In this document: one piece after another, positions 7,270 to 24,456 of the stretch
Position numbering within the stretch: position 1 is the stretch's first letter
Layout of the letters: each line of letters begins with the position of its first letter
Source of the DNA: an uncultured Desulfobacteraceae bacterium
Lineage (GTDB): Bacteria > Desulfobacterota > Desulfobacteria > Desulfobacterales > UBA5852
Length of the DNA: 64,000 nucleotides
Reading direction: 5' to 3'
Assembly: GCA_913060875.1 (NCBI GenBank)
Contig: CAJXSL010000007.1
Location: 1 to 64,000 of the forward strand
Notes under the pieces: generated by a model
Database searches by the model: none
What the model was told of the DNA's origin: nothing
The model's input: only the letters and a program-made list of their open reading frames with translations
Program-made: the position numbers and the translations under genes

Positions 7270-7622
7270 GGGGGCGAAACGGGTTCGACGGGGGCAAAGA
7301 AGCATTGGCTGCATGTCGAGCTTTCCTGTCCGCTCGTAAAACGACGGGAAACTAAATATAATCGCAGACGATTATAACTACGCCGTAGCTGCTTAAGCTA
7401 CCGTCCTTCCAGGCTACTCCTGCGGGCCTGGAAAGGGCGTCGACTAGCGGGATAGCAACGGTTAATGCCTGATGTAACCGAAGCGAAACTCTAATCAGGA
7501 TAAGTCTGAGGGGACCTGGCCCGGAAGGGCCCCGATGGCTGACACTCAAAGTTCGGGATAAGCATGTAGATGCCCATGTGGAATGTTTTCGGACGCGGGT
7601 TCGACTCCCGCCGCCTCCACCA
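7270..7622 (+). ncRNA. ssrA: Transfer-messenger RNA (tmRNA)
   Basis: One-piece tmRNA of 353 nt. The 5' end GGGGGCG pairs with CGCCTCC before the encoded ACCA at 7619-7622, and the T-arm GGGTTCGACTCCC is at 7597-7609. The tag reading frame starts at the resume codon GCA (7364) and encodes ADDYNYAVAA, then TAA at 7394-7396, a normal protease tag. It works with SmpB, encoded at 4525, to release stalled ribosomes. The 3' end is a classic island insertion site and is repeated at 20110. Confidence 0.96.
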
Positions 7623-8015
7623 TTTTCTATTTTATTTCAATTGTTTAAGATACATCACGGCCCTACTCGGTAGAATTCTGGCAAAATTTCAAGCCTTTGC
7701 AAATTTGGTTTCACCCCCAAGGGCCGGCACATGCCTGTAACAATGGTCCACGATCATGCGGGTTGCGGTACGAGACCTCAAGAATAGAAAAGGCCTGCCC
7801 GTCGCAGTAATGGTTGTGTGATCAGGGCCCACAGGAGATACAAACATGCAGCCCGAAAGCATCAAAACACAGGTCCACCAGTTAGTGGACAACCTTCCCG
7901 ACCATGCCACATGGGAAGATGTGATGTACCGCATTTACGTCCGCCAAGCCATCGATGCCGGGATCAAGGACAGTGATGCCGGGCGAACCGTTGACGTTAA
8001 AGAAGTGCGCAAAAG
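7595..8015. repeat. Left 421-bp direct repeat (ssrA 3' end through antitoxin gene)
   Basis: Matches 20110-20530 with about five substitutions. It includes the T-arm and acceptor end of ssrA, the spacer and nearly all of the antitoxin gene. The tmRNA copy here is intact. Confidence 0.92.
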
Positions 8016-8034
8016 GTTTGGCCTTCCGGCGTGA
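7846..8034 (+). CDS. Antitoxin of a RelE/ParE-type toxin-antitoxin pair
   Basis: A 62-residue protein (MQPESIKTQVHQLVDNLP...) with the length and charge pattern of addiction-module antitoxins; residues 22-40 resemble a short DNA-binding or dimerisation helix pair, but no family name can be assigned with certainty. AGGAG sits 8 bases before the ATG. Its stop overlaps the toxin start (GTGA), so the two are translationally coupled. A second copy lacking the last four residues and lacking a toxin lies at 20361. Confidence 0.75.
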   Translation: MQPESIKTQVHQLVDNLPDHATWEDVMYRIYVRQAIDAGIKDSDAGRTVDVKEVRKRFGLPA

Positions 8035-8403: not shown

Positions 8404-9560
8404 GGGACGTCTTTAATTATTTCAATATCCCCTCTTCCAATTGATCTTCCAACCGATACCCCCTATCCAAAGCGAGTTTTTCTCCGCGCCGAACGGCGTA
8501 GCCCACACCGGCAGGCGTCATGCCCAATGATTGCGCGATGTCGGATAAGGAAAGCCCCAGCTCACGCGAGCACCAGTAGCAAAAAAGGCTGCGCGCTTCC
8601 ATCCGCACCTGCTGACGCCCCTTTCGATAGATCTCTGCCGGGGATAGGTTATACAAAGAAGCCACCTGCCGGGCCACCTTACCCTGATCCCACCCTCGGC
8701 TGGCAAGCGCATATCGGCGCTCCAGTTCCTCGTTGGCCTGCTCAAGAATGTGTTTTACGAATTCAGAATCGCCCAGGATGCGCTCGTCGCCTTTGAGCCT
8801 TCCCATCTTCTTCCGGCGCTGCCGCTTGACCTCGGACCAGCCACCCAAACTGCGGATTAATCCGCCGCCGGTGAGGTCCTCCCTGCGGCCCTGTTCCACC
8901 CCGGAACGGACAAAGGCGAGATAACGCCTTCGGGCCGTGCGCAGACTCCCTCCGAACTGATCGAGCACATAATCGCTATCCTGCCATGGGCGTTTCTGTT
9001 TCCCCAGGATGACAGCGTGTCCGCTATAGCGGAAATCCTTCAATTGCTCGACATCTTCCACCATGCCGGCACGAAGCGGATTTAAATGAATATAGCGAAC
9101 CAACTCCTTGAGGTAGGCATCCTCCTGACAGAGAATGGACTTGTAGCGGTTCTGGAAGAGCTGTCCGTGGCGGCGGTGTCGGCGGTTGAATTTGACGGCA
9201 TAACCGGTCAAAAGCCGGCGCATGAACCCGCTCAGGCCTCCGGGGCCTGCACGCAACAGAAAATGGGCGTGATTGGTCATCAACACCCAGGCCAGACAGA
9301 TGGTCTGCGTTTCCGGAATCAGGCCGGCCAAACGATCCAAAATATCGTCATAGTCCGTTTCATCCCAAAAGATCTTCCGACGCTCAATCCCCCTGATGAT
9401 CACGTGATGCAATACACCCGGGGCGTCTAATCTGGCAGTACGTGGCATGAGGTTTTTTTGACATAAAGCATTGCCTATGGCAAGTTATTTTGTTATTTAA
9501 AGACGTCCCCAATCTTGCCTCGTCCCCAATCTTGCCTCAAAGACGTCCCCAATCTTGCCT
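8404..9560. mobile_element. REP-associated transposase unit with inverted and tandem ends
   Basis: The transposase gene is flanked by GGGACGTCTTTAA (8404-8416) and its exact complement (9497-9509). On the right the word CGTCCCCAATCTTGCCT is repeated three times between 9499 and 9560; on the left there are short GGCGGGTAAA repeats at about 8367-8404. This is the architecture of a REP-associated (RAYT-type) unit. Confidence 0.65.
8417..9448 (-). CDS. REP-associated tyrosine transposase (Y1/TnpA_REP) with C-terminal DnaA_C-like domain
   Basis: A 343-residue single-strand transposase-like protein. The N-terminal about 150 residues form the Y1 domain: start PRTARLDAPGVLHHVIIRG, the metal-binding HxH in MTNHAHFLL, and the region ending YIHLNPLRAGMV with the conserved Tyr before it. 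The C-terminal part (QVASLYNLSPAEIYRKG... LGLSLSDIAQSLGMTPAGVGYAVRRG) resembles a DnaA C-terminal helix-turn-helix, common in deltaproteobacterial members. No truncation is visible. Such proteins act on REP sequences, and matching inverted ends surround the gene. Confidence 0.88.
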   Translation of the reverse strand: MPRTARLDAPGVLHHVIIRGIERRKIFWDETDYDDILDRLAGLIPETQTICLAWVLMTNHAHFLLRAGPGGLSGFMRRLLTGYAVKFNRRHRRHGQLFQNRYKSILCQEDAYLKELVRYIHLNPLRAGMVEDVEQLKDFRYSGHAVILGKQKRPWQDSDYVLDQFGGSLRTARRRYLAFVRSGVEQGRREDLTGGGLIRSLGGWSEVKRQRRKKMGRLKGDERILGDSEFVKHILEQANEELERRYALASRGWDQGKVARQVASLYNLSPAEIYRKGRQQVRMEARSLFCYWCSRELGLSLSDIAQSLGMTPAGVGYAVRRGEKLALDRGYRLEDQLEEGILK

Positions 9561-9598: not shown

Positions 9599-10819
9599 TG
9601 GAAAAGTTAAGATCTTCCCGGACAATTTGAGGTAAGCGTCATCCCCAGCCGATAGGGGCTGGGGGTGACGCACGGTCGTCCTCTCGGGTATAGATGTTTT
9701 GCCGAACATTCGTACCCAAACAAGGAGGACATCATGACCGCAACCGAGAAATTAGCACACAAACGCCTCACCCTGCTACAGCTGGCTGAAAAACTGGGCA
9801 ACATATCCAAGGCGTGCCGCATGCACAAGGTATCCCGCAGTCAGTTTTACGAGTATAAACGAGCCTTTCAGCAACACGGGTTGGAGGGCTTGGTGGATAA
9901 GCCCCCGGTGCCGGGTTCACATCCAAGCCAGCTTTCCAAGAAAACAACGAATCGCATCATCGCATTGAGCCTTGAGCATCCTGCCTTTGGCCAGCAACGC
10001 ATTGCCGATCAACTGGCCCTTGAAGGCGTGTCAGTTTGTCCGACCAGCGTTCGCAACGTCTGGCTCAAAGAGGACTTGGAAACCAAATACAAACGGCTCC
10101 TGCGCTTGGAGGAGAAAGCCATGGCCAAAGGCTTTAAGCTCACCGAGGCGCAGATTAAACTGCTTGAAAAGGCCAACCCGGAGTTTGCCGAGCGTCATGT
10201 TAAAAGCGAGTATCCGGGCTATCTGCTCTGCCAAGACACATTTTATGTGGGGCGCTTGAAAGGCGTCGGCCGCGTCTATCTGCAAGCCGTGGTCGATACC
10301 TATGGCAGCGTGGCCTTCGGGAAATTGTACACGAGCAAGCGCCAGGAAACCGCTGCTGACGTCCTATACGATCGGGTACTGCCCTTCTATGAGAGCCATA
10401 GCATACAAATCGAAGCGATCCTGACGGATAACGGCACCGAGTACAAAGGCCGTCCCACGATCCATCTGTACGAAATCTTTCTGGAACTCAATGACATCGA
10501 GCATCGCACCACCAAGGTGGCGAGCCCAAGGACCAATGGCTTCGTGGAGCGCTTTAATCGAACCGTTCTGGACGAGTTCTTCAGAACGGCGTTTAGAAAG
10601 AAACTTTATGAATCTGTGGACGCGCTGCAGAAGGACTTGGATGCCTGGCTCCATGAGTACAACCACGACCGGCCTCACCGTGGTTATCGCAACCAGGGCC
10701 GCCGTCCAATGGAAACGTTTGAGTTAGGCAAAGTCCGCCGAGAAGAACTGCTCAAGGAGGCCGCCTAACGATCACCTATCCGAGAGGACTGACTGTTCGG
10801 AAGGTTTTTGACTTTTACA
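9599..10819. mobile_element. Complete IS481-like insertion sequence
   Basis: 1221 bp with imperfect terminal inverted repeats of about 26 bp, both beginning TG and sharing AAAAGT and TTCC blocks. It is flanked by an exact 7-bp target duplication CTTTACG (9592-9598 and 10820-10826). It carries one transposase gene. Intact ends and a perfect duplication suggest a fairly recent insertion. Confidence 0.88.
9734..10768 (+). CDS. IS481-family-like DDE transposase
   Basis: A 344-residue transposase: N-terminal helix-turn-helix (residues about 5-60, LAEKLGNISKACRMHKVSRSQ), a second HTH, then an RNase H-fold core with the DDE residues in QDTFYVG, TDNGTEYKG and NGFVERFNRT. The C-terminus has the usual NHDRPHRGYRNQGRRP. 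The ATG at 9734 has the strong ribosome site AAGGAGG; an upstream in-frame start would lie in the terminal region. The frame is complete, so the element may be active. IS481 is chosen because it is a single-ORF, IS3-related layout; an IS3-type relative is the alternative. Confidence 0.88.
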   Translation: MTATEKLAHKRLTLLQLAEKLGNISKACRMHKVSRSQFYEYKRAFQQHGLEGLVDKPPVPGSHPSQLSKKTTNRIIALSLEHPAFGQQRIADQLALEGVSVCPTSVRNVWLKEDLETKYKRLLRLEEKAMAKGFKLTEAQIKLLEKANPEFAERHVKSEYPGYLLCQDTFYVGRLKGVGRVYLQAVVDTYGSVAFGKLYTSKRQETAADVLYDRVLPFYESHSIQIEAILTDNGTEYKGRPTIHLYEIFLELNDIEHRTTKVASPRTNGFVERFNRTVLDEFFRTAFRKKLYESVDALQKDLDAWLHEYNHDRPHRGYRNQGRRPMETFELGKVRREELLKEAA

Positions 10820-11007: not shown

Positions 11008-12009
11008 TCATGGAATCAGCGATTCTGAATCAGGATTGTGTTTGCTCATTCTGTTTTTCACTGAATTCCATGACGCGTTTGCATAACAGTAGGTGCAAAG
11101 GTGGCAACAAGTATTGTATGTGCCGATATCCTTGCTGACAATGCAGCCACATTGTTTCCGCTGACCTTTATCCTTGAGGTCTGGTCGAAACGGTTTGCCG
11201 AAAAGGTCCGGTTCGTAGCCAAGGAAATTCATTAAAGCCGTATCATCATTAAAAAGGTCTACCATTAAGTGGTCGTCAATACAGCGGTTGTGAGATATAC
11301 CATAGCGATCAAGATCAATTTCCTCTGCACATGTTGCTATTTCAAGCCCCCATTCACGGTTGAGCACACTCAGCCGTTGTGCCAGCTCAGTCATTAAATC
11401 TGGTGTGAAGTCACGATAACGAACCTTCCGACGTGCCAGATTGTTCTGGACTTTTTTGTAGTTATTAATATCCGCAAAGCTGATAACCAGCTTTTTAGTA
11501 TACCCAAGCAACATATCTGCAACACGGGCAATTCGATCAATTAATACATCAATTGTGATGGAATCTGTTAGAATCAGCGGATCGAAACGCCAAATGACAC
11601 GTTCCTTGCCAATAAGTTCGGCCAGAGTCTTGAAAGTTTCGACACGTTGTTTGAGCGGAGGGACATTTGGCTCAAGACCATCGATCTCGTAATCATTCAA
11701 GGTGAAATGAAAGTAGTAGTTCAATCCCTTGGCATCAATTTCGGGTAGATAGCGAATGAGCGGCTTCGGATTCTTGCTCCAGAAAACGATGACTCGGGTT
11801 TTGCGGAAAGAAACGTACTGGACCTGTTTGGCGTTGAATGGATTCGTCCAACGCAGATAGCCGGCGTCCAATCGGTTACGAAACCAAGTAGAAAAAAATG
11901 CGGGGATATCCGTCGCGCGGCTGGTTGAGATGATAACGGGGCAAATCCCGTCCACTTTTTTGCCGTCGGTTAGTTTTATTTTTTCCTTCTGCCATCCACG
12001 AAAAGACAT
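11008..12009 (-). CDS. DUF1848 family protein (radical-SAM-like, Cys-rich C-terminus)
   Basis: A 333-residue protein that matches my memory of DUF1848: CPVIISTSRATDIPAFFSTWF near the N-terminus, FWSKNPKPLIRYLP, the barrel segments YYFHFTLNDYE and VIWRFDPLILTD, and a Cys-rich C-terminus (QCGCIVSKDIGTYNTCCHLCTYC). The family is related to spore photoproduct lyase-type radical SAM proteins, with the cluster cysteines at the end instead of the front. Biochemical role unknown. It is the last gene of the four-gene island operon, starting 9 bases after the methyltransferase-like gene with GAGAGTGA before the ATG. Confidence 0.8.
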   Translation of the reverse strand: MSFRGWQKEKIKLTDGKKVDGICPVIISTSRATDIPAFFSTWFRNRLDAGYLRWTNPFNAKQVQYVSFRKTRVIVFWSKNPKPLIRYLPEIDAKGLNYYFHFTLNDYEIDGLEPNVPPLKQRVETFKTLAELIGKERVIWRFDPLILTDSITIDVLIDRIARVADMLLGYTKKLVISFADINNYKKVQNNLARRKVRYRDFTPDLMTELAQRLSVLNREWGLEIATCAEEIDLDRYGISHNRCIDDHLMVDLFNDDTALMNFLGYEPDLFGKPFRPDLKDKGQRKQCGCIVSKDIGTYNTCCHLCTYCYANASWNSVKNRMSKHNPDSESLIP

Positions 12010-12018
12010 AGTTCACTC

Positions 12019-13806
12019 TCAATCCGCAAAAAAACCAGTATAACCACATGGGACATTACCAGCGAATTCTCGCTTTCGCCCCGCAAAGCAGGCTTCCGCT
12101 GGACGCGCGGCGTTAACCCGATAAGCTGCATGTTCTGTGTATGACACGGTGATCGAATGGGCAAATTCTGTACGGGCTAAAACACGGTAAGCGATTTTGC
12201 TTTCATCGTAATGCGCAAGAAGATGACTTAATTCAAATCGTCTCTGTGTATAGCAACTGTTCATTCTGCATGTAGTTGCGTTTCTGGCACAGGGCACAGG
12301 TAAAATGGTTTCTGTCACAGCATCTTCGGTCCGGCCATACTCATTAGCCTCTCTGTTAAGTGTCATTGCGAAATACTCATATCCGTTGTCGGTTGTAGTA
12401 ACGTCAGCGATTATACATATTCCGTATGGACCCAGCATGTGGGATACAATGCCAAGAGCATTTCGAATGATCCCCTGAGCCGTTGCATAGTTAGAGTTGT
12501 AGAACTCACAAAGGCATTTCCAGCACGTGATCAGATCATACTTGTAGTTTTCATTCTCAGCGAAGTCTGAGAACGCTGGAACAAAGCCCTCTAAATCAAA
12601 TGGAAGGTTGACCTGACGAAAATGGACATCCAGTTCAAATCTAAGGTGGTCCTTTAGTACGTTGAGGATCTGACCTTGCTTAGCCAACGCGTCTTCATTG
12701 GTATCGACCGAGAGGACCTCAACGGGAGCCTCACATCTGCCCGCCTCGGAAAGTGCCAGAAGTGTCCCGACTACAGCGGCACCTGTGCCTGAACCCACGT
12801 CAAGGAGACGGATTACATCCTTTTGGCAAAATGCACGTCGTATAACAGGCATGGCAAGGAGTTCTGCAACTATGTTCCAACTTTCGATGACCGATTTTGG
12901 AAAGTAGGTCCCGAGATAGACTCGATTCCTTTCATCATCTGCATCATGATTAAAACGCGCCCCTTGGCGTTGCGGATGGTAAACCGCACCCATTCCTGAA
13001 AGTTGATCACTAATGAAAGTTGGAAGCCTTGAATAAGTCTGCCGTTGCAAAACAGGTTCCCCAATGAACTCGTCTGCAACACGGGTGAGGGCCTCGGGGG
13101 CCAGTGCGCAAGCATGCGCGTGAAACGCCTCCACTATGCGGGATCTTGTCGCATTCCTGTTACGAATGAGACGATCTGTTTCAGTGTCAATCACCTCTTG
13201 AATGACTGGATTGCGTAGAATTCGGTAACGATCCTGCGCTAATTGATTTAGGAAAGCATCTCTTATGGCCGGCCGTAGATCAATGTCAGCTATTCGCGGC
13301 TCTATGATAGCATCAAGAATATATTCTTGTAGCAAGTCCTCACAAAGGTATCGACTTTGTTGGTCGCTACCGTTCCATGCGTCTTGCAACAACCCGAGGA
13401 TTCGGTCAAAACGTGCCAAGTAGTCGTTCGCCGCATCCTGGATGTCTTTATATTCGAACAGGGCTTGCCCCAATAACTGTAGCGGGCTAACTGGAATCAG
13501 TTGAGTAACAGCTTGTATGGCCGGATAAAGTTGCGCTCTTTCAAACAAAGAAAGGAAGAAAACTAAGAGCGCTACAATCGCCTCGGAAGGGTGCTCTCCA
13601 GCAAGAAGGGCATTTCCTGCAGGTGAATTTGTAAACCTGTAAAAGGTATTTTCGTACTCTATATGGCGACCTTGCTCTTGAAGCTCGCCTCGCGTTAACC
13701 CATAGAACAGCGGGCGAATTTCATGCAAATTGGAACTGAGAAACTCACTTAACTCATCCAATGAACGGCACTGATTGAGTTCGTCCTGTAAATCCTGAAG
13801 AGTCAT
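12019..13806 (-). CDS. Class I SAM-methyltransferase-like protein, 595 residues
   Basis: The N-terminal about 320 residues are helical and unrecognised. Residues about 335-344 read LDVGSGTGAA, the SAM-binding motif I, followed by VLSVDTNEDA at about 365-373 (acidic motif II) and further Rossmann strands (DLITCWKCLCEF; YGICIIADVTTTDNG). Near residues 510-522 is a Cys cluster CARNATTCRMNSC, recalling the iron-sulfur or zinc motifs of Rsm22-like methyltransferases, though no clear Rsm22 match can be claimed. Substrate unknown: RNA, DNA or protein are all possible. The ATG overlaps the stop of the upstream gene (ATGA), showing tight coupling. Confidence 0.7.
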   Translation of the reverse strand: MTLQDLQDELNQCRSLDELSEFLSSNLHEIRPLFYGLTRGELQEQGRHIEYENTFYRFTNSPAGNALLAGEHPSEAIVALLVFFLSLFERAQLYPAIQAVTQLIPVSPLQLLGQALFEYKDIQDAANDYLARFDRILGLLQDAWNGSDQQSRYLCEDLLQEYILDAIIEPRIADIDLRPAIRDAFLNQLAQDRYRILRNPVIQEVIDTETDRLIRNRNATRSRIVEAFHAHACALAPEALTRVADEFIGEPVLQRQTYSRLPTFISDQLSGMGAVYHPQRQGARFNHDADDERNRVYLGTYFPKSVIESWNIVAELLAMPVIRRAFCQKDVIRLLDVGSGTGAAVVGTLLALSEAGRCEAPVEVLSVDTNEDALAKQGQILNVLKDHLRFELDVHFRQVNLPFDLEGFVPAFSDFAENENYKYDLITCWKCLCEFYNSNYATAQGIIRNALGIVSHMLGPYGICIIADVTTTDNGYEYFAMTLNREANEYGRTEDAVTETILPVPCARNATTCRMNSCYTQRRFELSHLLAHYDESKIAYRVLARTEFAHSITVSYTEHAAYRVNAARPAEACFAGRKREFAGNVPCGYTGFFAD

Positions 13807-15680
13807 TTGGCATAGGCCTTAATATCTTCTTTAATGGCAAACTCTAATATACGTGGATTGAATTCTATCTTTCCATCAACGATAAGATCGATCACCTTAC
13901 TTTTCTCGATACGGTAGTGAAGTTTCTTTTTCCCGAATTTTTTGCTAAGCTCGTATTCGCCGGCCCAAAAAAAACATTGCGATATTAAATACTTTCCAAC
14001 TTCGCTTTCCTCATCAATAGTATCTCGCCGCCATGTTTTGAGAAGGTCTATGATTCTACCTGCTGGAGTAACTTCATACTGGCGGACCAATAAATCTTGA
14101 ACATAGTATGTTGTATCACTAACGAGTGGTCGAGGAAGGCTTGGCCGCTTGATCTTGAAGTTTGGAACGGATTCACCGAACAGCTCAATATTTTGGTATT
14201 CCTTTTCCTTAGACAAGAAAGCCCGCTGGTATAAAGTCTCAATTAATTGACGCTCGAAGTTGCTTGTGAGATGGAACTTGATGTCAACACGTTCGTCTTT
14301 GAGAAAGTTAAAGATGGAATGTACAGAATAGAGTGTTGTCTCAGCAGCATCCAATGCGGTGTATCCATAGTATGCTCCAAGCGCTGCAAGGACCAATTGG
14401 GCCTGAGTCTGGCTCGACCAGTCTTCATGAAGGCGCTGTTTCACCGTTCGATAGCCATTCGATTGTCGTCCTGAAAATTTATATAATGCTGCAAAAATAG
14501 CAGCTTCCGCAGAACACTCAAATCTTTGAAATACTTGAATGGCAGAACGGTAATCTCCATTTAAAAGTGTTTTAAACGCCTGTGCGAGGGTGGTCTTCTT
14601 ACCTGTTTCCGTGTAGATCACTCTCGCGAGTTCACGAACCTTCTCTTTTTCGATGTATGGTTCCTGAGATCTGACCAAGGTAAGAATCGCGTCAATAGTC
14701 GGAGTTGTCCGGACATCAAAATCTAATAATGCCAGGATCAAAGGGGCTGGTGTTGGAAGGTCTGAACGTGTAACACTGGACCTTCCTAAAATACATTGAC
14801 ATACAGAAAAAAATTCATCTGGATAGTCCGTGTAAAAACCTGTCTTGTCTGAGAAATAGCGTGACGCATTGCGCAAAAATGCCATAATCCCCATATACCG
14901 GTCAAATTTGGTGATGGAATTAGCAAGATAGGGATCGGCTTTGGCACTCGTTCGTGGAATACGCCTACCATCATCATTTTCGTTCGTCCATGAAGGATCT
15001 TTGGCTATGCTAAAAAGGTGTCTGGGGACAGGAACGTCTGGTTTCACCCAACCATCGACGTAACGATCGACGCTGGCATTTCCAATTGGGATTTCAATGC
15101 CTACCAGCCTGGAAATCGGAATAGGGACAGTGACATGAATTATGTCACCTTCTGAGCCCGCTTCAAGTATTTCATCAGGATTCAAGAGGACCTTAAGAAG
15201 AACCTGATTTTTTTTTAGCAACTGAGGGCTCTCGAACATAGTCAGATCAGCAGGCGACAGACTCAGAGCATCATCGAAGTTGGCGGATAAACCGGCCTTA
15301 TCATAAACTGCTGGGTAGATGAGCCCGTGAGCAAGAAACACTTGGGCACGGAGCTGATCAACAGGCATGAAATAAAGATTATTTTTCCTATAACCGATCT
15401 TTTCTGTCGTTGTGATACCCGGCCGTGATGGCGTTTCGACAACATATTTTTCCTTCCCATTTTCGAGGTCTTTTTTCGCTGGAGCATTAAAAAGATCGTA
15501 ATTTGGGCCGGGAACGTTTTTGCGAATCAGTCCATTCCGGAGAGCCTGCTTGATTGTAACGGCTTTGGTTTCGCCTTTAGGACGAATACAATAAAATTTA
15601 TTTTTAGCAACATGCTCAATGCCGTCCACAAGGGCTTGGTACTCAATTCCGTCTCTATAGAAAATCGATCCTTTTATCAT
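13803..15680 (-). CDS. Uncharacterised 625-residue protein of the island operon
   Basis: Not recognised. The first about 55 residues (SIFYRDGIEYQALVDGIEH...) could be a small beta domain. Residues 55-220 contain LYFMPVDQLRAQVFLAHGLIYPAVYDK and repeated aliphatic strands, which recall the start of some small enzyme or ADP-ribosyltransferase-like folds, but this is only an impression. The C-terminal half is mostly helical. It lies between the helicase-like gene (19-base gap) and the methyltransferase-like gene (4-base overlap), with a good GAGGAG ribosome site, so it is almost surely a working partner of both. No Walker, HNH, PD-(D/E)XK or membrane motif was seen. Confidence 0.75.
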   Translation of the reverse strand: MIKGSIFYRDGIEYQALVDGIEHVAKNKFYCIRPKGETKAVTIKQALRNGLIRKNVPGPNYDLFNAPAKKDLENGKEKYVVETPSRPGITTTEKIGYRKNNLYFMPVDQLRAQVFLAHGLIYPAVYDKAGLSANFDDALSLSPADLTMFESPQLLKKNQVLLKVLLNPDEILEAGSEGDIIHVTVPIPISRLVGIEIPIGNASVDRYVDGWVKPDVPVPRHLFSIAKDPSWTNENDDGRRIPRTSAKADPYLANSITKFDRYMGIMAFLRNASRYFSDKTGFYTDYPDEFFSVCQCILGRSSVTRSDLPTPAPLILALLDFDVRTTPTIDAILTLVRSQEPYIEKEKVRELARVIYTETGKKTTLAQAFKTLLNGDYRSAIQVFQRFECSAEAAIFAALYKFSGRQSNGYRTVKQRLHEDWSSQTQAQLVLAALGAYYGYTALDAAETTLYSVHSIFNFLKDERVDIKFHLTSNFERQLIETLYQRAFLSKEKEYQNIELFGESVPNFKIKRPSLPRPLVSDTTYYVQDLLVRQYEVTPAGRIIDLLKTWRRDTIDEESEVGKYLISQCFFWAGEYELSKKFGKKKLHYRIEKSKVIDLIVDGKIEFNPRILEFAIKEDIKAYAK

Positions 15681-15698
15681 GGATCGCTCCTCTCAATA

Positions 15699-16883
15699 CT
15701 AAAATGAGATATCATCTTCGGTAAGTGTAATATGTGTTTCCGCAGGCTGGGAATCGAATGTGTCGATCTCAAATTCCTCAATGGGATCACACTGAGGTAC
15801 AGATAAGTCACGATAAACAAAAAGCTGGTTACGTGCACGCGTACAAGCAACAAACCACTCCTTGGAGATTTCCTTGAAAAAGTTGATACGCGGTATGATT
15901 ACGGTATCGAACTCCATGCCTTTTGCCGATTTAAATGTTGTGACAACGTACCGGTGAAGTTCTCTGGGCACATCAGCCTGACTGTGATACTTGCTTACGC
16001 TAAAACCCATATTTTCGATTAGTCGATGCACTTCATCAACAGACTCACCCGAGTGATTGAAATTTCGGGGTAATGGCCCTAAAGGGCAAAGAATAGCGAC
16101 ATTTCCCTCTGCGTTCTGAAGCGTCACTTGAAGGTGTGCGTTTCTGCTTTCAACATTCTGGTAAGTAACGACTGTCGGTATTGGACCTCGCCGGTTTGCG
16201 TGGAGCAGACGTTCAAGAATTGCCTCATCCCAGGCAACACGATTGGTTTTAGGAATGAATTGCCTCGCGAATCGGTAAGTTTCATATGTATTGCGAAAGT
16301 TCCTTCCGAGTGTGAAACGTCGGTATTGATTGGAGCGGCTTCTTAAAGACTGCTCAATCTGCTCCATTTGAGCACCGTGGCATGGGTGAACTTGCTGACC
16401 ATTGTCGGCACCAACGAAGATCCTTTGAAAATATCTCGGCAGGACGTCATAGACGCATGGTGGAAGGTCTTGGCCTTCGTCAATAAGAAGTTCCACCATG
16501 TCTTGGTTGGCAAGGTCTTTGTCGTCAAGGGCGGTAACCATTTCTTGTGCCGTAGGGGGCGAATCCGTATCGAAACCTCCGTCAATTAGCCTGCAATACC
16601 ATCTATGAAACGTGCTTACGCGATGGGCCGGCACGCGCTGTACGTTAGCAAGATTCTGAATCGCAAGGACCAACATGTTCTGGTAGGTTACCAAACGAAC
16701 CTTGTGGGCTTGATTGTTCAGCCGGACGAGGCGGTAGATTGAGACAGTCGTCTTCCCACTCCCGGGGCATCCTGTCACAAGGGCGCCACGGAAGTTGTCG
16801 TCATCAATCATGCGCAGCATTTCGATCCCGTCTGGTGTCGCTCGCATCTCTTCCAAAGATGGCAAATGAAACTCAAACGGCAA
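15699..16883 (-). CDS. UvrD/Rep-like (superfamily 1) ATPase/helicase, compact
   Basis: 394 residues, much shorter than full UvrD. Walker A is GCPGSGKTT at about 38-46, the Walker B/motif II is LLIDEGQDLPP at about 132-142 (DEGQ in place of DExQ), and the C-terminal part keeps motif V/VI-like FKSAKGMEFDTVIIPR and FVACTRARNQLFVYRDL. Probably DNA or RNA translocase activity. The start codon is TTG, supported by AAAGGAG eight bases upstream. It is the first gene of the four-gene operon, with a roughly 490-base AT-rich divergent region upstream. Compact helicases of this type are frequent in defence systems. Confidence 0.85.
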   Translation of the reverse strand: MPFEFHLPSLEEMRATPDGIEMLRMIDDDNFRGALVTGCPGSGKTTVSIYRLVRLNNQAHKVRLVTYQNMLVLAIQNLANVQRVPAHRVSTFHRWYCRLIDGGFDTDSPPTAQEMVTALDDKDLANQDMVELLIDEGQDLPPCVYDVLPRYFQRIFVGADNGQQVHPCHGAQMEQIEQSLRSRSNQYRRFTLGRNFRNTYETYRFARQFIPKTNRVAWDEAILERLLHANRRGPIPTVVTYQNVESRNAHLQVTLQNAEGNVAILCPLGPLPRNFNHSGESVDEVHRLIENMGFSVSKYHSQADVPRELHRYVVTTFKSAKGMEFDTVIIPRINFFKEISKEWFVACTRARNQLFVYRDLSVPQCDPIEEFEIDTFDSQPAETHITLTEDDISF

Positions 16884-17601: not shown

Positions 17602-17715
17602 CCGAAAATTTAAATCGACTTCTAACCGATCCTCCCCCTTTGTCCCTTCCCGAGCTAACCGCAAACAGCCGCCTATTTACCGTCTTATTTTAACAATCAA
17701 ATGAAGAGGGTAAAC

Positions 17716-19554
17716 ATGACTGAAAAGCAACGCCAATCCGACGACAATTTACTGAAAATGCAAGTCGATAACGTAGGATTTCTTCTTGATCGACTTGGAC
17801 GAGACTGCCATCCGTTGCAATTTCTACGGGAATTGACCCAAAATTCACTTGAGGCCATCCAAAGGAGTGGTGAGCCAGGCCAAATTATCTGGGATGTTGA
17901 GCCTGCCCAGATGATTCTAAATGATGTTCAAAAGCTGTGTATTATAGACTCGGGTTGCGGGATGACCGGTGACGAGATGGTAAAGTTTATAAACCAATTA
18001 TCAGCATCTATTGGTGAACAGTCTTTTTCAGAAAATTATGGCGTTGGTGCTAAGATCGCTGCGGCGACCAGAAATCATGAGGGTGTGGTCTATATGTCAT
18101 GGAAAAACGGACAAGGTTCGATGATCCACCTTCAGCGGGATTCTGATACTGGTCAATATGGGCTAATCAAGCACCAGAAAAAAGACGGTACGTACAGTTC
18201 CTACTTGCTTATTGATGATGACCTGAAACATGAAAATATAAAGGATCACGGGACTATAGTCGTTCTTTTGGGGAATTCTCCAGATGAAAGCACAATGACA
18301 GCCCCGGAAAGGGTACCGTCTCCATCTCGTTGGGTTTCCAAGTATCTCAACACTCGATACTTTAGATTCCCAGAAAACGTTACTGTTCGGGCACGCGAAG
18401 GGTGGGATTTTCCAAGTGCGGATAAAGACAGAAATGTATTAAGAAAATTGATGGGGCAGGAGGGATACTTAAAACGGCACTCTGAAAAATCAGGAACGAC
18501 CGAGCTTACGAATGCAACAGCCCATTGGTGGATATTGAAGGATGAACCTGCAATAAATAACAATTCCGGTTATATCGAATCCGCAGGCCATATAGCCGCT
18601 CTATACCAAAATGAACTTTATGAAATTGCCTCGGCCAGGCGGGGCATGCGAAAACTTCAGCAATTTGGGATAACCTTCGGCTACAGATTCGTTGTGATTT
18701 ACATTGAGCCTCATAAAGACAAGCTGAAGGACAAAATCACGACTAATACTGCCCGCACAATGTTGCTCCTTGAAAATGAAAATCTGCCGTGGGGTGATTG
18801 GGCTGAAGAATTCAGAGAAAAAATGCCAGAGGAATTGAAAGCCTTTGTACAGGAAAAGGCTGCAGGCTCGGCATCAACTGACCACTCAAAATCAATACGC
18901 GATCGGTTAAAAGATATTATAGATCTATATAAAATTAGTCGGTATCGCCCAGCGCCAGATGGCACCTTATTAATTGATAGCGATCAGTTAGTGCGTGGCG
19001 GACGGCCTTCGAAAGAACGAGAAAGCAGCCCGTCAAAAACTCCCCGCCGTAGCGGCAGAAAGGGAGGATCTGCCGGCTCCCTGTATTCTGCATTTGAGAA
19101 AGACAGTGGCATACCTGGGGAAAAAATCACTCCTGACCCTTTTCCAGAAACTACATGGGTAACAATTGAAAATGGAACGCGTGCACAGGGTTATCTTGAA
19201 GATAGAGCCGCAGGGTATATTGAAGAATCGAACCTTTTACAAATAAACGCCGATTTTCGAGTATTTAAAGACATGATTGAATTCTTTACTAAAGAGTTCG
19301 GGGACGGCCCTGGCGTTCGGGATGTAGTCCATGATGTTGTATGTGCATGGTTTGAGCAAGCATTGGTCGAAACGGTTATAGGTGTGCAGGCACTTCAGGG
19401 TACAAGCAAGGAATGGACACAAGACTACTATACAGTAGCAATTTCCGAAGAAGCCCTTACATCATCAGTGATGCAAAGGTACCACGTAATTACTTCGGTA
19501 CGTAGAGAATTGGCTAATAAACTCGGACCATCTAAAATTAAGCGGGCAGGATAA
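17716..19554 (+). CDS. GHKL (HSP90/MutL/MORC-like) ATPase
   Basis: 612 residues. The Bergerat ATP fold is clear: N box ELTQNSLEA at about 39-47, G1 box DSGCGM at 78-83 and G2 box YGVGAK at 108-113. The rest does not look like MutL, gyrase or HtpG; around residues 435-465 there is a Ser/Arg/Gly-rich linker (RPSKERESSPSKTPRRSGRK, split by position), then a C-terminal helical domain. The role may be a conformational ATP switch. The ATG at 17716 follows AAGAGGG and is preferred to the ATG at 17701. Lower GC than the host genes and its island setting suggest acquisition by transfer and a defence-type function. Confidence 0.8.
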   Translation: MTEKQRQSDDNLLKMQVDNVGFLLDRLGRDCHPLQFLRELTQNSLEAIQRSGEPGQIIWDVEPAQMILNDVQKLCIIDSGCGMTGDEMVKFINQLSASIGEQSFSENYGVGAKIAAATRNHEGVVYMSWKNGQGSMIHLQRDSDTGQYGLIKHQKKDGTYSSYLLIDDDLKHENIKDHGTIVVLLGNSPDESTMTAPERVPSPSRWVSKYLNTRYFRFPENVTVRAREGWDFPSADKDRNVLRKLMGQEGYLKRHSEKSGTTELTNATAHWWILKDEPAINNNSGYIESAGHIAALYQNELYEIASARRGMRKLQQFGITFGYRFVVIYIEPHKDKLKDKITTNTARTMLLLENENLPWGDWAEEFREKMPEELKAFVQEKAAGSASTDHSKSIRDRLKDIIDLYKISRYRPAPDGTLLIDSDQLVRGGRPSKERESSPSKTPRRSGRKGGSAGSLYSAFEKDSGIPGEKITPDPFPETTWVTIENGTRAQGYLEDRAAGYIEESNLLQINADFRVFKDMIEFFTKEFGDGPGVRDVVHDVVCAWFEQALVETVIGVQALQGTSKEWTQDYYTVAISEEALTSSVMQRYHVITSVRRELANKLGPSKIKRAG

Positions 19555-20109: not shown

Positions 20110-20530
20110 GCGGGTTCGACTCCCGCCGCCTTCACCATTTTCTATTTTATTTCAATTGCTTAAGATACATCACGGCCCTACGCGGTAGAATTCTGGCAAA
20201 ATTTCAAGCCTTTGCAAATTTGGTTTCACCCCCAAGGGCCGGCACATGCCTGTAATAATGGTCCACGATCATGCGGGTTGCGGTACGAGACCTCAAGAAT
20301 AGAAAAGGCCTGCCCGTCGCAGTAATGGTTGTGTGATCAGGGCCCACAGGAGATACAAACATGCAGCCCGAAAGCATCAAAACACAGGTCCACCAGTTAG
20401 TGGACAACCTTCCCGACCATGCCACATGGGAAGATGTGATGTACCGCATTTACGTCTGCCAAGCCATCGATGCCGGGATCAAGGACAGTGATGCCGGGCG
20501 AACCGTTGACGTTAAAGAAGTGCGCAAAAG
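20110..20530. repeat. Right 421-bp direct repeat (ssrA 3' fragment through antitoxin gene)
   Basis: Copy of 7595-8015. It begins at the T-arm of the tmRNA (CGGGTTCGACTCCCGCCGCC), then TTCACCA, where ssrA itself has TCCACCA, so only the last roughly 28 bases of ssrA are present. It marks the distal end of the island. Confidence 0.92.
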
Positions 20531-20537
20531 ATTCTGA
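20361..20537 (+). CDS. Orphan, slightly shortened antitoxin copy
   Basis: 58 residues, identical to the antitoxin at 7846 except Arg-to-Cys at residue 33 and loss of the last four residues (GLPA), because sequence identity stops at 20530 and an accidental TGA ends the frame. No toxin follows. It keeps the same AGGAG ribosome site and upstream region, so it may still be made and could neutralise the toxin of the left copy. Confidence 0.7.
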   Translation: MQPESIKTQVHQLVDNLPDHATWEDVMYRIYVCQAIDAGIKDSDAGRTVDVKEVRKRF

Positions 20538-20549
20538 TACACATTGTGA

Positions 20550-20903
20550 TTAAGCAGAGCATGCACAAGAATGAACTGACACACGGCCTCGTCTTGTTTT
20601 TTGAGCCGGCCGCCTAGTAAAACGATCTCGTATAGTAATGTCCACTTCCTGATTCAGGGCAGAATGCCAATGAAGGAGCTTTTCAACGGAAACGAGATCA
20701 AGTTGTCCGCGAAGGAGCTTGGACACGGTAGGTTGATCAGTGCCAACGCGTTCGGCCACTTCTTTTTGAGTAAGGCTGTGGAGTTTCATGAGGCGTTGGA
20801 GATTGACCACCAGTTTTGCCTTGACGGATAGTTCTTCGGCATCTTGGAGGCCGATGTCAGCAAAAACATTGCCAGAACTGGGGGTAGTTTTGATTTTGCT
20901 CAT
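20550..20903 (-). CDS. HigA-like XRE antitoxin
   Basis: 117 residues from the ATG at 20903, which follows AAGGAG. The HTH is LQRLMKLHSLTQKEVAERVG then QPTVSKLLRG, and the C-terminal segment (VSVEKLLHWHSALNQEVDITI) is typical of the HigA-type family that follows a Gp49-like toxin. The toxin gene ends 4 bases upstream, in the reverse-order arrangement (toxin first) usual for higBA. The last about 25 residues are Arg-rich and unusual, possibly from a change where the island end joined. Confidence 0.82.
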   Translation of the reverse strand: MSKIKTTPSSGNVFADIGLQDAEELSVKAKLVVNLQRLMKLHSLTQKEVAERVGTDQPTVSKLLRGQLDLVSVEKLLHWHSALNQEVDITIRDRFTRRPAQKTRRGRVSVHSCACSA

Positions 20904-20907
20904 CTCA

Positions 20908-21261
20908 TCACTCCTTCTCAACTTCTTTATCCCTTTGACGAGCCTCTTTAAGCCTTTGTTTTATGAGGTTCGTATCCCTCGGTGGAGTTTTTTTCCCGGA
21001 CTTTGATTTCTTCTGGAAGCAGTGCAAAACATAAACCGCGTTTTTCAACTTCGCTATGTACACTGCCCTGTAAGTTTCTTTGTCGAAAGGTTGGACTATC
21101 TCGAAAACGCCACTCGTTCCCTTTCCTTTCAAAGGTTTCGCATTAAGCGGAACCTCTCCGCACTGGACTGAATATAGAGCATAGCCTATAGGTCTAGCTG
21201 CTCCAGGCGGAAACCCCTTTAGATTGTCCAGAGAATCTCCCATCCACTCCAATGTTTTCAT
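20908..21261 (-). CDS. HigB/Gp49-like toxin (RelE superfamily)
   Basis: 117 residues with the layout of phage-derived Gp49-like toxins: LEWMGDSLDNLKGFPPGAARPIGYALY, then GVFEIVQPFDKETYRAVYIAKLKNAVYVLHCFQKKSKSGKKTP, which holds the catalytic basic patch of RelE-type mRNA interferases. It precedes the HTH antitoxin, the usual higBA order. A palindrome just upstream (21269-21288) fits an autoregulatory operator. Confidence 0.85.
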   Translation of the reverse strand: MKTLEWMGDSLDNLKGFPPGAARPIGYALYSVQCGEVPLNAKPLKGKGTSGVFEIVQPFDKETYRAVYIAKLKNAVYVLHCFQKKSKSGKKTPPRDTNLIKQRLKEARQRDKEVEKE

Positions 21262-22081: not shown

Positions 22082-22750
22082 ATGTGCGGACGCTTCGTCG
22101 GATATCGGCCCATTGAAACCCTTCAGGACCATTTCCCGATTGATCGGGTTGAGGCCACCATTGCGCCGAATTTCAACATTGCCCCCACCCAGAGGATAGC
22201 CGCCATCGTCCAGGAAGGTGATGAGAACGTCCTCAAATCGTTCCAGTGGGGGCTTGTCCCCTTCTGGGCCAAAGATCCCGCAATCGGTGTCCGGATGATC
22301 AATGCCCGGGCTGAAACCGTGGATTCGAAGCCTTCCTTCAGGAACGCATTCAAGAAACGCCGGTGCATAATCCCTGCCGATGGGTTTTATGAATGGACCG
22401 GGCCGAAAGGCAACAAGCAGCCGGTCTTTATCACACGGCCAAACGGTGAGCCTTTTGGATTCGCCGGACTGTGGGAGGTTTGGGACAACAAGGGCATGGC
22501 CGCCCAACCGCTTTATAGCGTTACGATCATCACAACCGAGGCCAGCCAGGCGATCAAGGATATTCATCACCGAATGCCGGTCATTTTGAAACCTGAAGCT
22601 TTCAGCGATTGGATGAATACCGGCACACCAACAGGCCCCCTCAAGGAAATCATCACGACCAGAATTTACAAAGACCTGGTTTTCAGGAGCGTGTCCAAGG
22701 CCGTAAACTCCACCAGGAACAATTCAGCGGATTTGATTGAAGGGGAATAG
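22082..22750 (+). CDS. SRAP/HMCES-family protein (YedK-like)
   Basis: Shields abasic sites in single-stranded DNA by forming a covalent link through its N-terminal Cys. 222 residues. Cys2 follows the initiator Met (MCGRF), the Asn lies in NFNIAPTQ, the Glu in DGFYEW and the His in IHHRMPVIL: all four active-site positions are present, so it should be functional. Start is fixed because Met removal must expose Cys2. Monocistronic; SOS-type control was not seen. It sits between two accessory regions rich in toxin-antitoxin genes. Confidence 0.93.
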   Translation: MCGRFVGYRPIETLQDHFPIDRVEATIAPNFNIAPTQRIAAIVQEGDENVLKSFQWGLVPFWAKDPAIGVRMINARAETVDSKPSFRNAFKKRRCIIPADGFYEWTGPKGNKQPVFITRPNGEPFGFAGLWEVWDNKGMAAQPLYSVTIITTEASQAIKDIHHRMPVILKPEAFSDWMNTGTPTGPLKEIITTRIYKDLVFRSVSKAVNSTRNNSADLIEGE

Positions 22751-22873: not shown

Positions 22874-22921
22874 AACCCGAACATTTAATGAACATCGCGA
22901 ACACGTGAAATATCCGGGTTA
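22874..22921. repeat. MITE-like repeat family 1, minimal copy
   Basis: Only the two ends remain: AACCCGAACATTTAATGAAC and CACGTGAAATATCCGGGTTA, in 48 bases. Its last three bases provide the stop codon of the hipA-like gene on the minus strand. Confidence 0.75.
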
Positions 22922-24145
22922 GGTTTCAGTTATTTTCAATCTTCGACCGATATCCTTACCGATACTGACGGCATCCTTCTCCGGCACATTAAATTTACGG
23001 AAAACTTTGGGCCATTCTGATACCGCCCCGTGTATCTCCGTAATGACTTCCATTGCTTCTTGGCGCCTTTTTATCCCAAAATATTTCGCCTCGGCCAGAA
23101 GCGCTCCAGCATTCGGCGGCAGGGTCTCCATGCCGATTCGAAGAACGTGTTCCTTATTGAAGCCGATATTCGGTAACAAATCGAAAGCGGGACTCAGGCG
23201 CCAGCCAGTGTCATCATGCAGCATGATAAAGTTTTTCAGATGATCGTCGGTATTGCCGATCATAATGTTGAATACCATCTGCCTGTAAAGCTTATGCAGA
23301 TCATGTCCCGGTTGTGAAGAAATGTACTTGATAACCTCGGCCAGGTCCCTGTATCCCGCATTATAATAGCCATCGGCCTTGAGCAGCGACTGCATGCTGA
23401 CCAAGTGATTGCGTCCACCGGCTGCGTTGATGTCGAAACGCCGCACCAGCAGGCATTTTTCCGTAGTGCCCAACGCAAAGATCTTGGTATCGGCTGTTTC
23501 GATTCCTGCCCGCCGAGCCAACGCCATAACCGCTGCTTCAAGGCTTACGACGTCCAATCGATCCTTGGCGCTGGCAAACTTTGCCAAGTATGCCCCTTTA
23601 TCATCCGTCACAAGGGCCTTAGGCCGGGCCCCTCCCGGTGAACTGCCTGCCTGGAACAAAAGGGACAGTTCATCGTCATCCGCGGTTGCGGGTTCCTGTT
23701 CGAATTTTTGCGCAAGCAATGCCAGTTCCTGTAGATGCCGGCAGGAAATACCGGTTGTTTTTACTTCCGGCCTCCCTTCCTCCACGTAGCTCAAGGCCCC
23801 CAAGCCCTGGTTACCCAGCAACCGTAATAAATTTGGAACACGTTGCACATTGCGGCTCAATTTATGGCGGCGAATCATGAGCCGCCGGCCCCAATCATCC
23901 GGCAAGCTGTCTTCAAAAACGCCATGAACACCTTCACGCGGCCTGTCGGCATCAAAGGTTTTCATGGACAAAGACAAGTTCAGGGGATCAAGCGGGAAGG
24001 CTTGTGGATATTCCAGGTATTCGGGTGCGTAACGAAACTGCCCCTGCAATCCCCCTCTGACGGGATCCGGGTCACTGACAATCAGGGCGCCTGCCATAAG
24101 GCTTTCTCCCGATGGCAGGGTCAGCCAGACATCAAGCCGAATCAT
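22919..24145 (-). CDS. HipA-like serine/threonine kinase toxin
   Basis: 408 residues of the HipA family, whose classical member phosphorylates glutamyl-tRNA synthetase and causes growth arrest. Visible are the N-terminal subdomain (GQFRYAPEYLEYPQAFPLDP; VFEDSLPDDWGRRL), the ATP loop near GSSPGGARPKALV, the catalytic NTDDHLKNF and the magnesium-binding SPAFDLLPN. It overlaps the HTH partner gene by 4 bases (ATGA). The stop codon lies within the end of a MITE-like repeat, so the extreme C-terminus may have been changed by that insertion. Confidence 0.92.
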   Translation of the reverse strand: MIRLDVWLTLPSGESLMAGALIVSDPDPVRGGLQGQFRYAPEYLEYPQAFPLDPLNLSLSMKTFDADRPREGVHGVFEDSLPDDWGRRLMIRRHKLSRNVQRVPNLLRLLGNQGLGALSYVEEGRPEVKTTGISCRHLQELALLAQKFEQEPATADDDELSLLFQAGSSPGGARPKALVTDDKGAYLAKFASAKDRLDVVSLEAAVMALARRAGIETADTKIFALGTTEKCLLVRRFDINAAGGRNHLVSMQSLLKADGYYNAGYRDLAEVIKYISSQPGHDLHKLYRQMVFNIMIGNTDDHLKNFIMLHDDTGWRLSPAFDLLPNIGFNKEHVLRIGMETLPPNAGALLAEAKYFGIKRRQEAMEVITEIHGAVSEWPKVFRKFNVPEKDAVSIGKDIGRRLKITET

Positions 24146-24456
24146 GCCTTCCTCTTTCGTTTACCGCCGGCCCGTTGCCGTTTACCGCTTTTCTTCTCAA
24201 ATTCAGCAAATAGGTCTTCCTTCTCGGCCAATACATCTTTCCAATCTTCGAGTCGGCCGAGAATGTTGCTGGCTGCCAACCAGTTGCCGATAAGGGTCTG
24301 CGGTGAGCCTTTTTCCATCTTACTGTAAGACTGACGGGTTAGACCTAGCCGCTGAGCGAACAGTTCCTGGCTCTCGTTCCGATCCAGGCGGGCATTTTTT
24401 AATCGTTGTCCCAATTGTTCCAAAAGAGATTCAATATCAATGTTTTTGTTAATCAT
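24142..24456 (-). CDS. HipB-like XRE antitoxin
   Basis: 104 residues with a central HTH (LKNARLDRNESQELFAQRLGLTRQSYSKMEKGSPQT) and a Lys/Arg-rich tail. First gene of a hipBA pair; its stop overlaps the hipA start. Members bind the toxin and repress the operon. The upstream 60 bases are AT-rich and probably hold the promoter. Confidence 0.9.
   Translation of the reverse strand: MINKNIDIESLLEQLGQRLKNARLDRNESQELFAQRLGLTRQSYSKMEKGSPQTLIGNWLAASNILGRLEDWKDVLAEKEDLFAEFEKKSGKRQRAGGKRKRKA

Follow-up and report, generated by a model that had tools for sequence, protein, structure and literature searches.

Several described defence systems overlap in part with the locus reported here. DISARM and other DrmAB-type systems combine a helicase with a methyltransferase on mobile DNA, and ARMADA II has a GajB-like UvrD helicase with an RNase toxin domain (PMC12458937). 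Gabija contains GajB, which like HelD carries superfamily 1 (SF1) motifs, and its partner is the OLD-family nuclease GajA. DRT UG35 and RTasDUF1848 (PADLOC) appear to share with the locus a DUF1848 partner and a methyltransferase-like N-terminal region. The locus is a four-gene operon (16883-11008, minus strand) in a 64,000-nucleotide stretch of contig CAJXSL010000007.1 from an uncultured Desulfobacteraceae bacterium; the whole stretch is called the window below. An original prediction, made from the sequence alone, had proposed that the operon could be a defence or base-modification system located in an ssrA island.

PADLOC (version 2023), NCBIfam, PHROGs and Pfam contain no named system with the four-gene set, in line with that prediction. 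Judged from sequence, the operon has one kind of part in common with each of DISARM, ARMADA, Gabija and DRT but lacks a defining feature of every one. Specifically, although SF1 relatives of the operon ATPase adjoin DrmB, the operon differs from DISARM and ARMADA: scans with Pfam, PADLOC and NCBIfam find no DrmA, DrmB or YprA helicase in it, and it has no DNA methyltransferase of PglX or DrmM type. Unlike GajB and HelD, the ATPase of the window has only 394 residues without 1B/2B inserts, and Pfam and PADLOC give no GajA-type match in the operon. Nor do they give a match to a reverse transcriptase (RT) domain in the four proteins, unlike in DRT UG35.

A four-gene module on mobile DNA

The four kinds of gene form a conserved operon module on mobile DNA. 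The window contains them as four leftward genes, and all open reading frames (ORFs) are present where they had been placed:

15699-16883, minus strand: compact SF1 (UvrD/HelD-like) ATPase, 394 aa with a TTG start, identified by its SF1 motifs
13803-15680, minus strand: predicted ADP-ribosyltransferase (ART)-domain (2CompART) protein, putative effector, 625 aa, identified by a Pfam match that is above the cut-off in the orthologue
12019-13806, minus strand: Rsm22/METTL17-like methyltransferase, 595 aa, identified by motif I, a Cys cluster and a two-orthologue profile
11008-12009, minus strand: DUF1848 protein, 333 aa, with a C-terminal CX3CX2C

The intergenic gaps along the operon are 18, -4 and 9 bases; the last two agree with the original prediction, which had counted 19 for the first. 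The TTG start of the SF1 gene, also predicted, is supported by the orthologue, whose ATG start aligns there (MPFEFHLP / MGFKFHLP).

All four kinds occur together in five loci, which belong to three desulfo-lineage genera and two mobile-element contigs. Searches beyond the phylum covered collections of viruses, plasmids and phages and a single pattern-based scan of genomes. Contig JANQGV010000206.1 (L003) of G227, a distant Thermodesulfobacteriota metagenome-assembled genome (MAG), carries the four genes in the same order, just as closely spaced and flanked by genes that are otherwise unrelated. The identities between window and G227 are 60% for DUF1848, 37% for SF1, 27% for the methyltransferase and 26%, over the full length, for the ART protein. 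A search of the phylum with the ART protein (395 genomes) found it in two, the one beyond the window being G227. A scan of genome contigs with two short peptide patterns from the ART alignment likewise gave only the G227 MAG, and no match to the ART protein was found in the plasmid, phage and viral-contig collections.

The other three loci (L028, L049 and G157) have a second order, namely methyltransferase, SF1, large protein and DUF1848. L028 is a human-gut 'Bacteriophage sp.' contig (MT835661), on which the operon lies between tyrosine recombinases, similar in DNA sequence to Prevotella/Parabacteroides integrases, and adjoins an AbiJ-domain gene; the start of its methyltransferase is uncertain. 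L049 is an IMG/VR contig, the methyltransferase of which also has a NERD nuclease domain. The host phylum of both contigs was inferred. G157 is a desulfo-lineage genome of another genus than the window (locus L084). The large fourth protein, which is the ART protein in two of the five loci, is replaced in these three by another family of 653-807 aa. A similar-looking start (LYIPTTTLN..NI.STE.I.P) had raised the idea that this second effector family is homologous to the ART protein, which was rejected by hhalign against shuffled and reversed controls. Schlafen AlbA_2-domain proteins are encoded at L028 11059-12621 and L049 1814-3367 and may be accessory parts.

Reduced forms of the module were also found. 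DUF1848 is accompanied by a compact SF1 in L015, where the contig ends within the SF1 gene, and by a fused methyltransferase-NERD-SF1 protein in L019/L020 and L027, where the methyltransferase part is a weak match; the L019 locus adjoins GmrSD and HsdR-like genes. DUF1848 is found with only a distant member of the same methyltransferase family in L087 (1990-3856), and with only a different methyltransferase in L076 (132-1772). These two operons specifically support the predicted pairing of a radical-SAM-like enzyme (SAM, S-adenosylmethionine) and a methyltransferase. They lie on ordinary contigs and could represent a basal DUF1848 function. Conversely, SF1 adjoins the second effector family without methyltransferase or DUF1848 on the prophage-like contig L053 (1608-4612), where an unrelated 397-aa gene upstream occupies the place of the methyltransferase.

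That cargo genes without relation to one another piled up by chance at a site of frequent integration would be consistent with ssrA being a variable site in the genus and with DUF1848 being common. However, in each of five independent loci DUF1848, methyltransferase, SF1 and a large fourth protein form an unbroken run, in one of two fixed orders, which refutes this explanation for the set as a whole and leaves it extremely improbable. Conservation of the set in unrelated islands, which the original prediction had named as its own test, is thus observed.

DUF1848 and the Rsm22-like methyltransferase

The C-terminus of the DUF1848 protein reads C-X-C...DIG.YNTC-X3-C-X-Y-C, in which C287 and C289 precede a CX3CX2C motif formed by C301, C305 and C308. 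A CX3CX2C in which the last Cys follows an aromatic residue is shared with radical SAM enzymes, and the corresponding YC is present in the window, in G227 and in most of the DUF1848 C-termini compared. In contrast to those enzymes, the DUF1848 motif is C-terminal and follows the main domain, so the order would be permuted, and SAM binding is putative. Consistent with the likeness, the DUF1848 protein of L028 aligns weakly to the start of PF04055 exactly at CX3CX2C (E 0.21). No relative of DUF1848 was found by sequence among solved structures, and a literature search found no paper naming DUF1848.

DUF1848 has a match in 97 of the 390 genomes of the phylum sample. Because it is common and mostly solitary, the information lies in the recurring combination and not in DUF1848 itself. 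A tree of DUF1848 proteins places the window protein with that of G227 (90/94) and joins those of L028 and L049 to a solitary copy from Parabacteroides (99/100). The window's own genome has a second, very divergent DUF1848 gene (L013, C1:662427-663263), which adjoins a gene judged by eye to be dihydrouridine synthase-like, hinting at an RNA-related housekeeping role for DUF1848. Stand-alone DUF1848 genes of the operon subfamily are also found on large viral contigs (L016, L017, L021, L022 and L023), where they possibly serve counter-defence or phage nucleic-acid modification.

The N-terminal part of the 595-aa methyltransferase is helical; the protein further contains YLGTYFPKS, motif I (LDVGSGTG) and a C-terminal Cys cluster (C506/C513/C518). 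Its sequence resembles that of the rRNA/tRNA-type methyltransferases Rsm22 and METTL17. Specifically, a profile built from two operon orthologues finds bacterial Rsm22-family proteins at 3e-8 to 1.7e-4, one of which is confirmed by PF09243, the Rsm22 family; PF09243 itself gives no match up to E 1 for the window or G227 methyltransferase. With Rsm22/METTL17 (PF09243) it shares a class I methyltransferase core (Y...Y.P, LD.G.GTG and a K..E region) followed by a Cys cluster, a cluster that, after the methyltransferase fold, has been described as unique to Rsm22 (PMC8171064). It differs in cysteine spacing, in its helical or NERD N-terminus and in its location in a mobile operon. Motif I and three invariant Cys are present in four of the five operon methyltransferases, G157 having an incomplete cluster, and metal binding is predicted only. 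METTL17 is described as an iron-sulfur (Fe-S) cluster checkpoint (PMC11046306).

Motif IV of the form [DNS]PP[YFW], which includes DPPY and NPPY, is not present; the corresponding region reads DLITCWKCLCEF / DIIMSSKFISEF. Therefore, the protein is not a standard DNA amino-methyltransferase of the restriction-modification, BREX or DISARM kind. Base modification had been predicted, and with an Rsm22-like enzyme that lacks DPPY/NPPY its target is likelier to be RNA than DNA. In the structure model of the methyltransferase the helical N-terminus is confident and the C-terminal half is of low confidence. The model gave weak class I methyltransferase fold matches with poor TM scores (top FAM86A, E 4.5e-3), their weakness reflecting the low-confidence half, and they were set aside. 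No methyltransferase match was found in plasmids.

The likeness to Rsm22 bears on a different explanation, in which the operon serves stress and not phage defence, as a module that repairs RNA or modifies ribosomes or tRNA and is carried as beneficial cargo, with the helicase and the ART protein acting on damaged RNA. Rsm22/METTL17 are associated with rRNA/tRNA (PMC8171064, PMC11046306), KptA is an ART known in RNA repair (PMC9503650), and both solitary DUF1848 and DUF1848-methyltransferase pairs occur on ordinary chromosomes. However, the operon is mobile and patchy, and its central proteins diverge fast (26% identity beside 60% for DUF1848). In addition, Pfam assigns 2CompART and not KptA, and the neighbours at L028 and L019 are of defence type. 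We consider this explanation rather unlikely.

Matches to PADLOC models raise another explanation, that the operon is a DRT/UG35 relative in which the RT has been replaced by the SF1 ATPase. The DUF1848 protein of the window matches RTasDUF1848 at 1.5e-40, and the methyltransferase matches RT_UG35 at 2.5e-6 (profile positions 80-159), as does its G227 orthologue at 6.9e-9 (positions 52-192). These matches suggest that UG35 RTs may carry a related methyltransferase region and a DUF1848 partner; if so, a DUF1848-methyltransferase core would be common to RT-based and SF1-based systems. The link remains a lead because the match to the DUF1848 model is generic to the family. Moreover, there is no RT gene in or beside the operon, no UG35 locus with DUF1848 turned up, and a genome search with RT_UG35 gave mostly generic RT domains. 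Descent from a UG35-like system is thus improbable.

The SF1 ATPase and the ADP-ribosyltransferase-domain protein

The SF1 ATPase contains all SF1 motifs (GCPGSGKT, DEGQD, NFRNT, TTFKSAKGMEFD and VACTRAR), and the motifs from Walker A to motif VI are conserved across an alignment of 8 SF1 relatives, as in SF1 helicases. It is closest to UvrD/HelD/GajB-type proteins, and its top PADLOC matches are the GajB and NERD+UvrD models. Its length is too short to hold the 1B/2B insert domains. Similar compact SF1 ATPases directly follow DrmA/DrmB-type genes on Deinococcus and Streptomyces plasmids (L010 7995-9116 and L011 7926-9011), which suggests a DrmAB-SF1 three-gene unit there.

The 625-aa protein, unrecognised in the original prediction, is on sequence grounds a predicted ADP-ribosyltransferase-domain protein with a long C-terminal part. 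Its G227 orthologue matches the full 120-position 2CompART profile (PF22546) at 7.7e-15 with 55.6 bits, well over the Pfam gathering cut-off of 27 bits; the window protein matches in the same region under the cut-off (E 0.0056, 17.3 bits). The 2CompART region spans residues ~97-200 and is followed by the long helical C-terminal part. PADLOC has no match for the protein, and all matches of a literature search on '2CompART' were unrelated words. An AlphaFold model was unusable and was discarded (pLDDT 34).

The ssrA element and the possible role of the operon

The operon lies in a mobile element at ssrA, with the following features:

7270-7622, plus strand: tmRNA gene (ssrA), the integration site
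7595-8018, no strand: left direct repeat of the island (attL-like), beginning in the tmRNA 3' end
20110-20533, no strand: right direct repeat (attR-like), 98.6% identical to 7595-8018
8417-9448 and 9665-10768: transposase genes inside the element

The direct repeat of 424 bp starts within the tmRNA T-arm (GCGGGTTCGACTCCCGCCGCCT.CACCA). The segment that the repeats bound is 12,515 bp (12.5 kb) long; besides the operon and the two transposase genes it contains a gene for a GHKL ATPase, and none of the ORFs scanned within it was recognisable as an integrase. The segment is missing at the ssrA locus in the congeners checked (G003 and G001), which together with the repeats confirms the predicted island. 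In G003, ssrA is followed by ~3.5 kb of other cargo and then by a HipA/HipB region that corresponds to 22.9-24.5 kb of the window; in G001, a short contig, the sequence past ssrA is without similarity to the island. The methyltransferase profile has a single match in its own genome, and a search of the four congeners gave no ART protein. The operon therefore looks like a recent, mobile acquisition. At 44-48% G+C the whole operon is AT-rich, much of the window having 55-65%; the original prediction had noted AT-rich central genes. Rfam contains no match to a non-coding RNA in the operon 5' region, and promoter and terminator patterns show no excess at the operon.

The element also encodes, divergently from the operon, a 617-aa GHKL (HSP90/MutL-type) ATPase (17701-19554, plus strand), possibly a separate defence gene. 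It was left out as a fifth part of the operon, as it does not adjoin the operon in G227. Just right of the element are HigBA-like (20550-21261) and HipBA (22919-24456) toxin-antitoxin genes, and HipBA near ssrA is kept at 89% in G003. A SRAP (YedK/HMCES-like) gene, identified by eye, lies close to the element at 22082-22750. The other cargo at the same ssrA site in G003 includes an AbiEi/AbiEii-like pair, also judged by eye (L050 4741-6260).

The operon could instead act in a toxin-antitoxin-like or self-protecting manner and mainly stabilise the island, either with an ART toxin restrained by the other three proteins or with the methyltransferase and DUF1848 modifying the target for host immunity. 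Within conflict systems, ART proteins frequently act as toxins (PMC9503650), stop and start codons in the operon are tightly coupled, and genes of HigBA and HipBA type stand just outside the element. However, running four large enzymes for addiction would be unusually expensive, an unrelated family takes the effector's place in loci that retain SF1, methyltransferase and DUF1848, and L053 has SF1 and the second effector without methyltransferase and DUF1848. This role seems about as doubtful to us as RNA repair.

We favour defence because of the island, the AbiJ-domain neighbour in L028, the GmrSD and HsdR-like neighbours in L019 and the DrmA/DrmB-adjacent SF1 relatives, and put at about even chances that the operon is a horizontally moving conflict system, most likely an anti-phage one. 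Probably, the four genes encode an undescribed system that targets nucleic acids and pairs a methyltransferase with a radical-SAM-like enzyme. Thus the original interpretation holds in part: the module is conserved, while we infer the defence role from mobility and neighbourhood and put forward the chemistry as a proposal.

In the mechanism that we propose, DUF1848 (radical-SAM-like, Fe-S) and the Rsm22-like methyltransferase would together modify or sense nucleic acid. They would form the chemical core, since pairs of this kind also occur by themselves, and the substrate would most likely be structured RNA (rRNA/tRNA), because the methyltransferase is Rsm22-like. SF1 and the large protein would be the effector arm, because L053 has the two of them but no core, and because it is the large protein that can be swapped. 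The compact SF1 ATPase would read an invader-induced nucleic-acid state by ATP hydrolysis and license its large partner. The ART protein would then modify nucleic acid or a translation/transcription component, or consume NAD+, and so stop the infection; elsewhere the second protein family would fill the same swappable slot. A broader form of this proposal is less likely: a new modular anti-phage family with a constant core of permuted radical-SAM-like DUF1848 and an Fe-S Rsm22-like methyltransferase, which together would install or read an RNA (or DNA) hypermodification, and with a compact SF1 ATPase triggering interchangeable effectors, here the ART protein.

Several points weigh against the favoured reading. 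Both the role and the activity are predictions from sequence. The ART-type version occurs in only 2 of the 395 phylum genomes and in 1 of the 291 genomes of the order, and hhalign detects no homology between the second effector family and the ART protein. The catalytic residues of the ART protein and of the methyltransferase are predicted only, and neither structure model helps, the methyltransferase half of one being poor and the other being the discarded ART model. The incomplete Cys cluster of the G157 methyltransferase counts here as well, and DUF1848, common and usually solitary, may have a general housekeeping role.

The DUF1848 family is widespread, and its recurrent association with methyltransferases, by themselves or within mobile operons that also have helicase and effector, points to a partner and a class of substrates that can be tested. 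Should the operon protect against phage, the known defence designs would gain a modification module that is centred on RNA and depends on Fe-S and SAM, as well as an ADP-ribosyltransferase effector.

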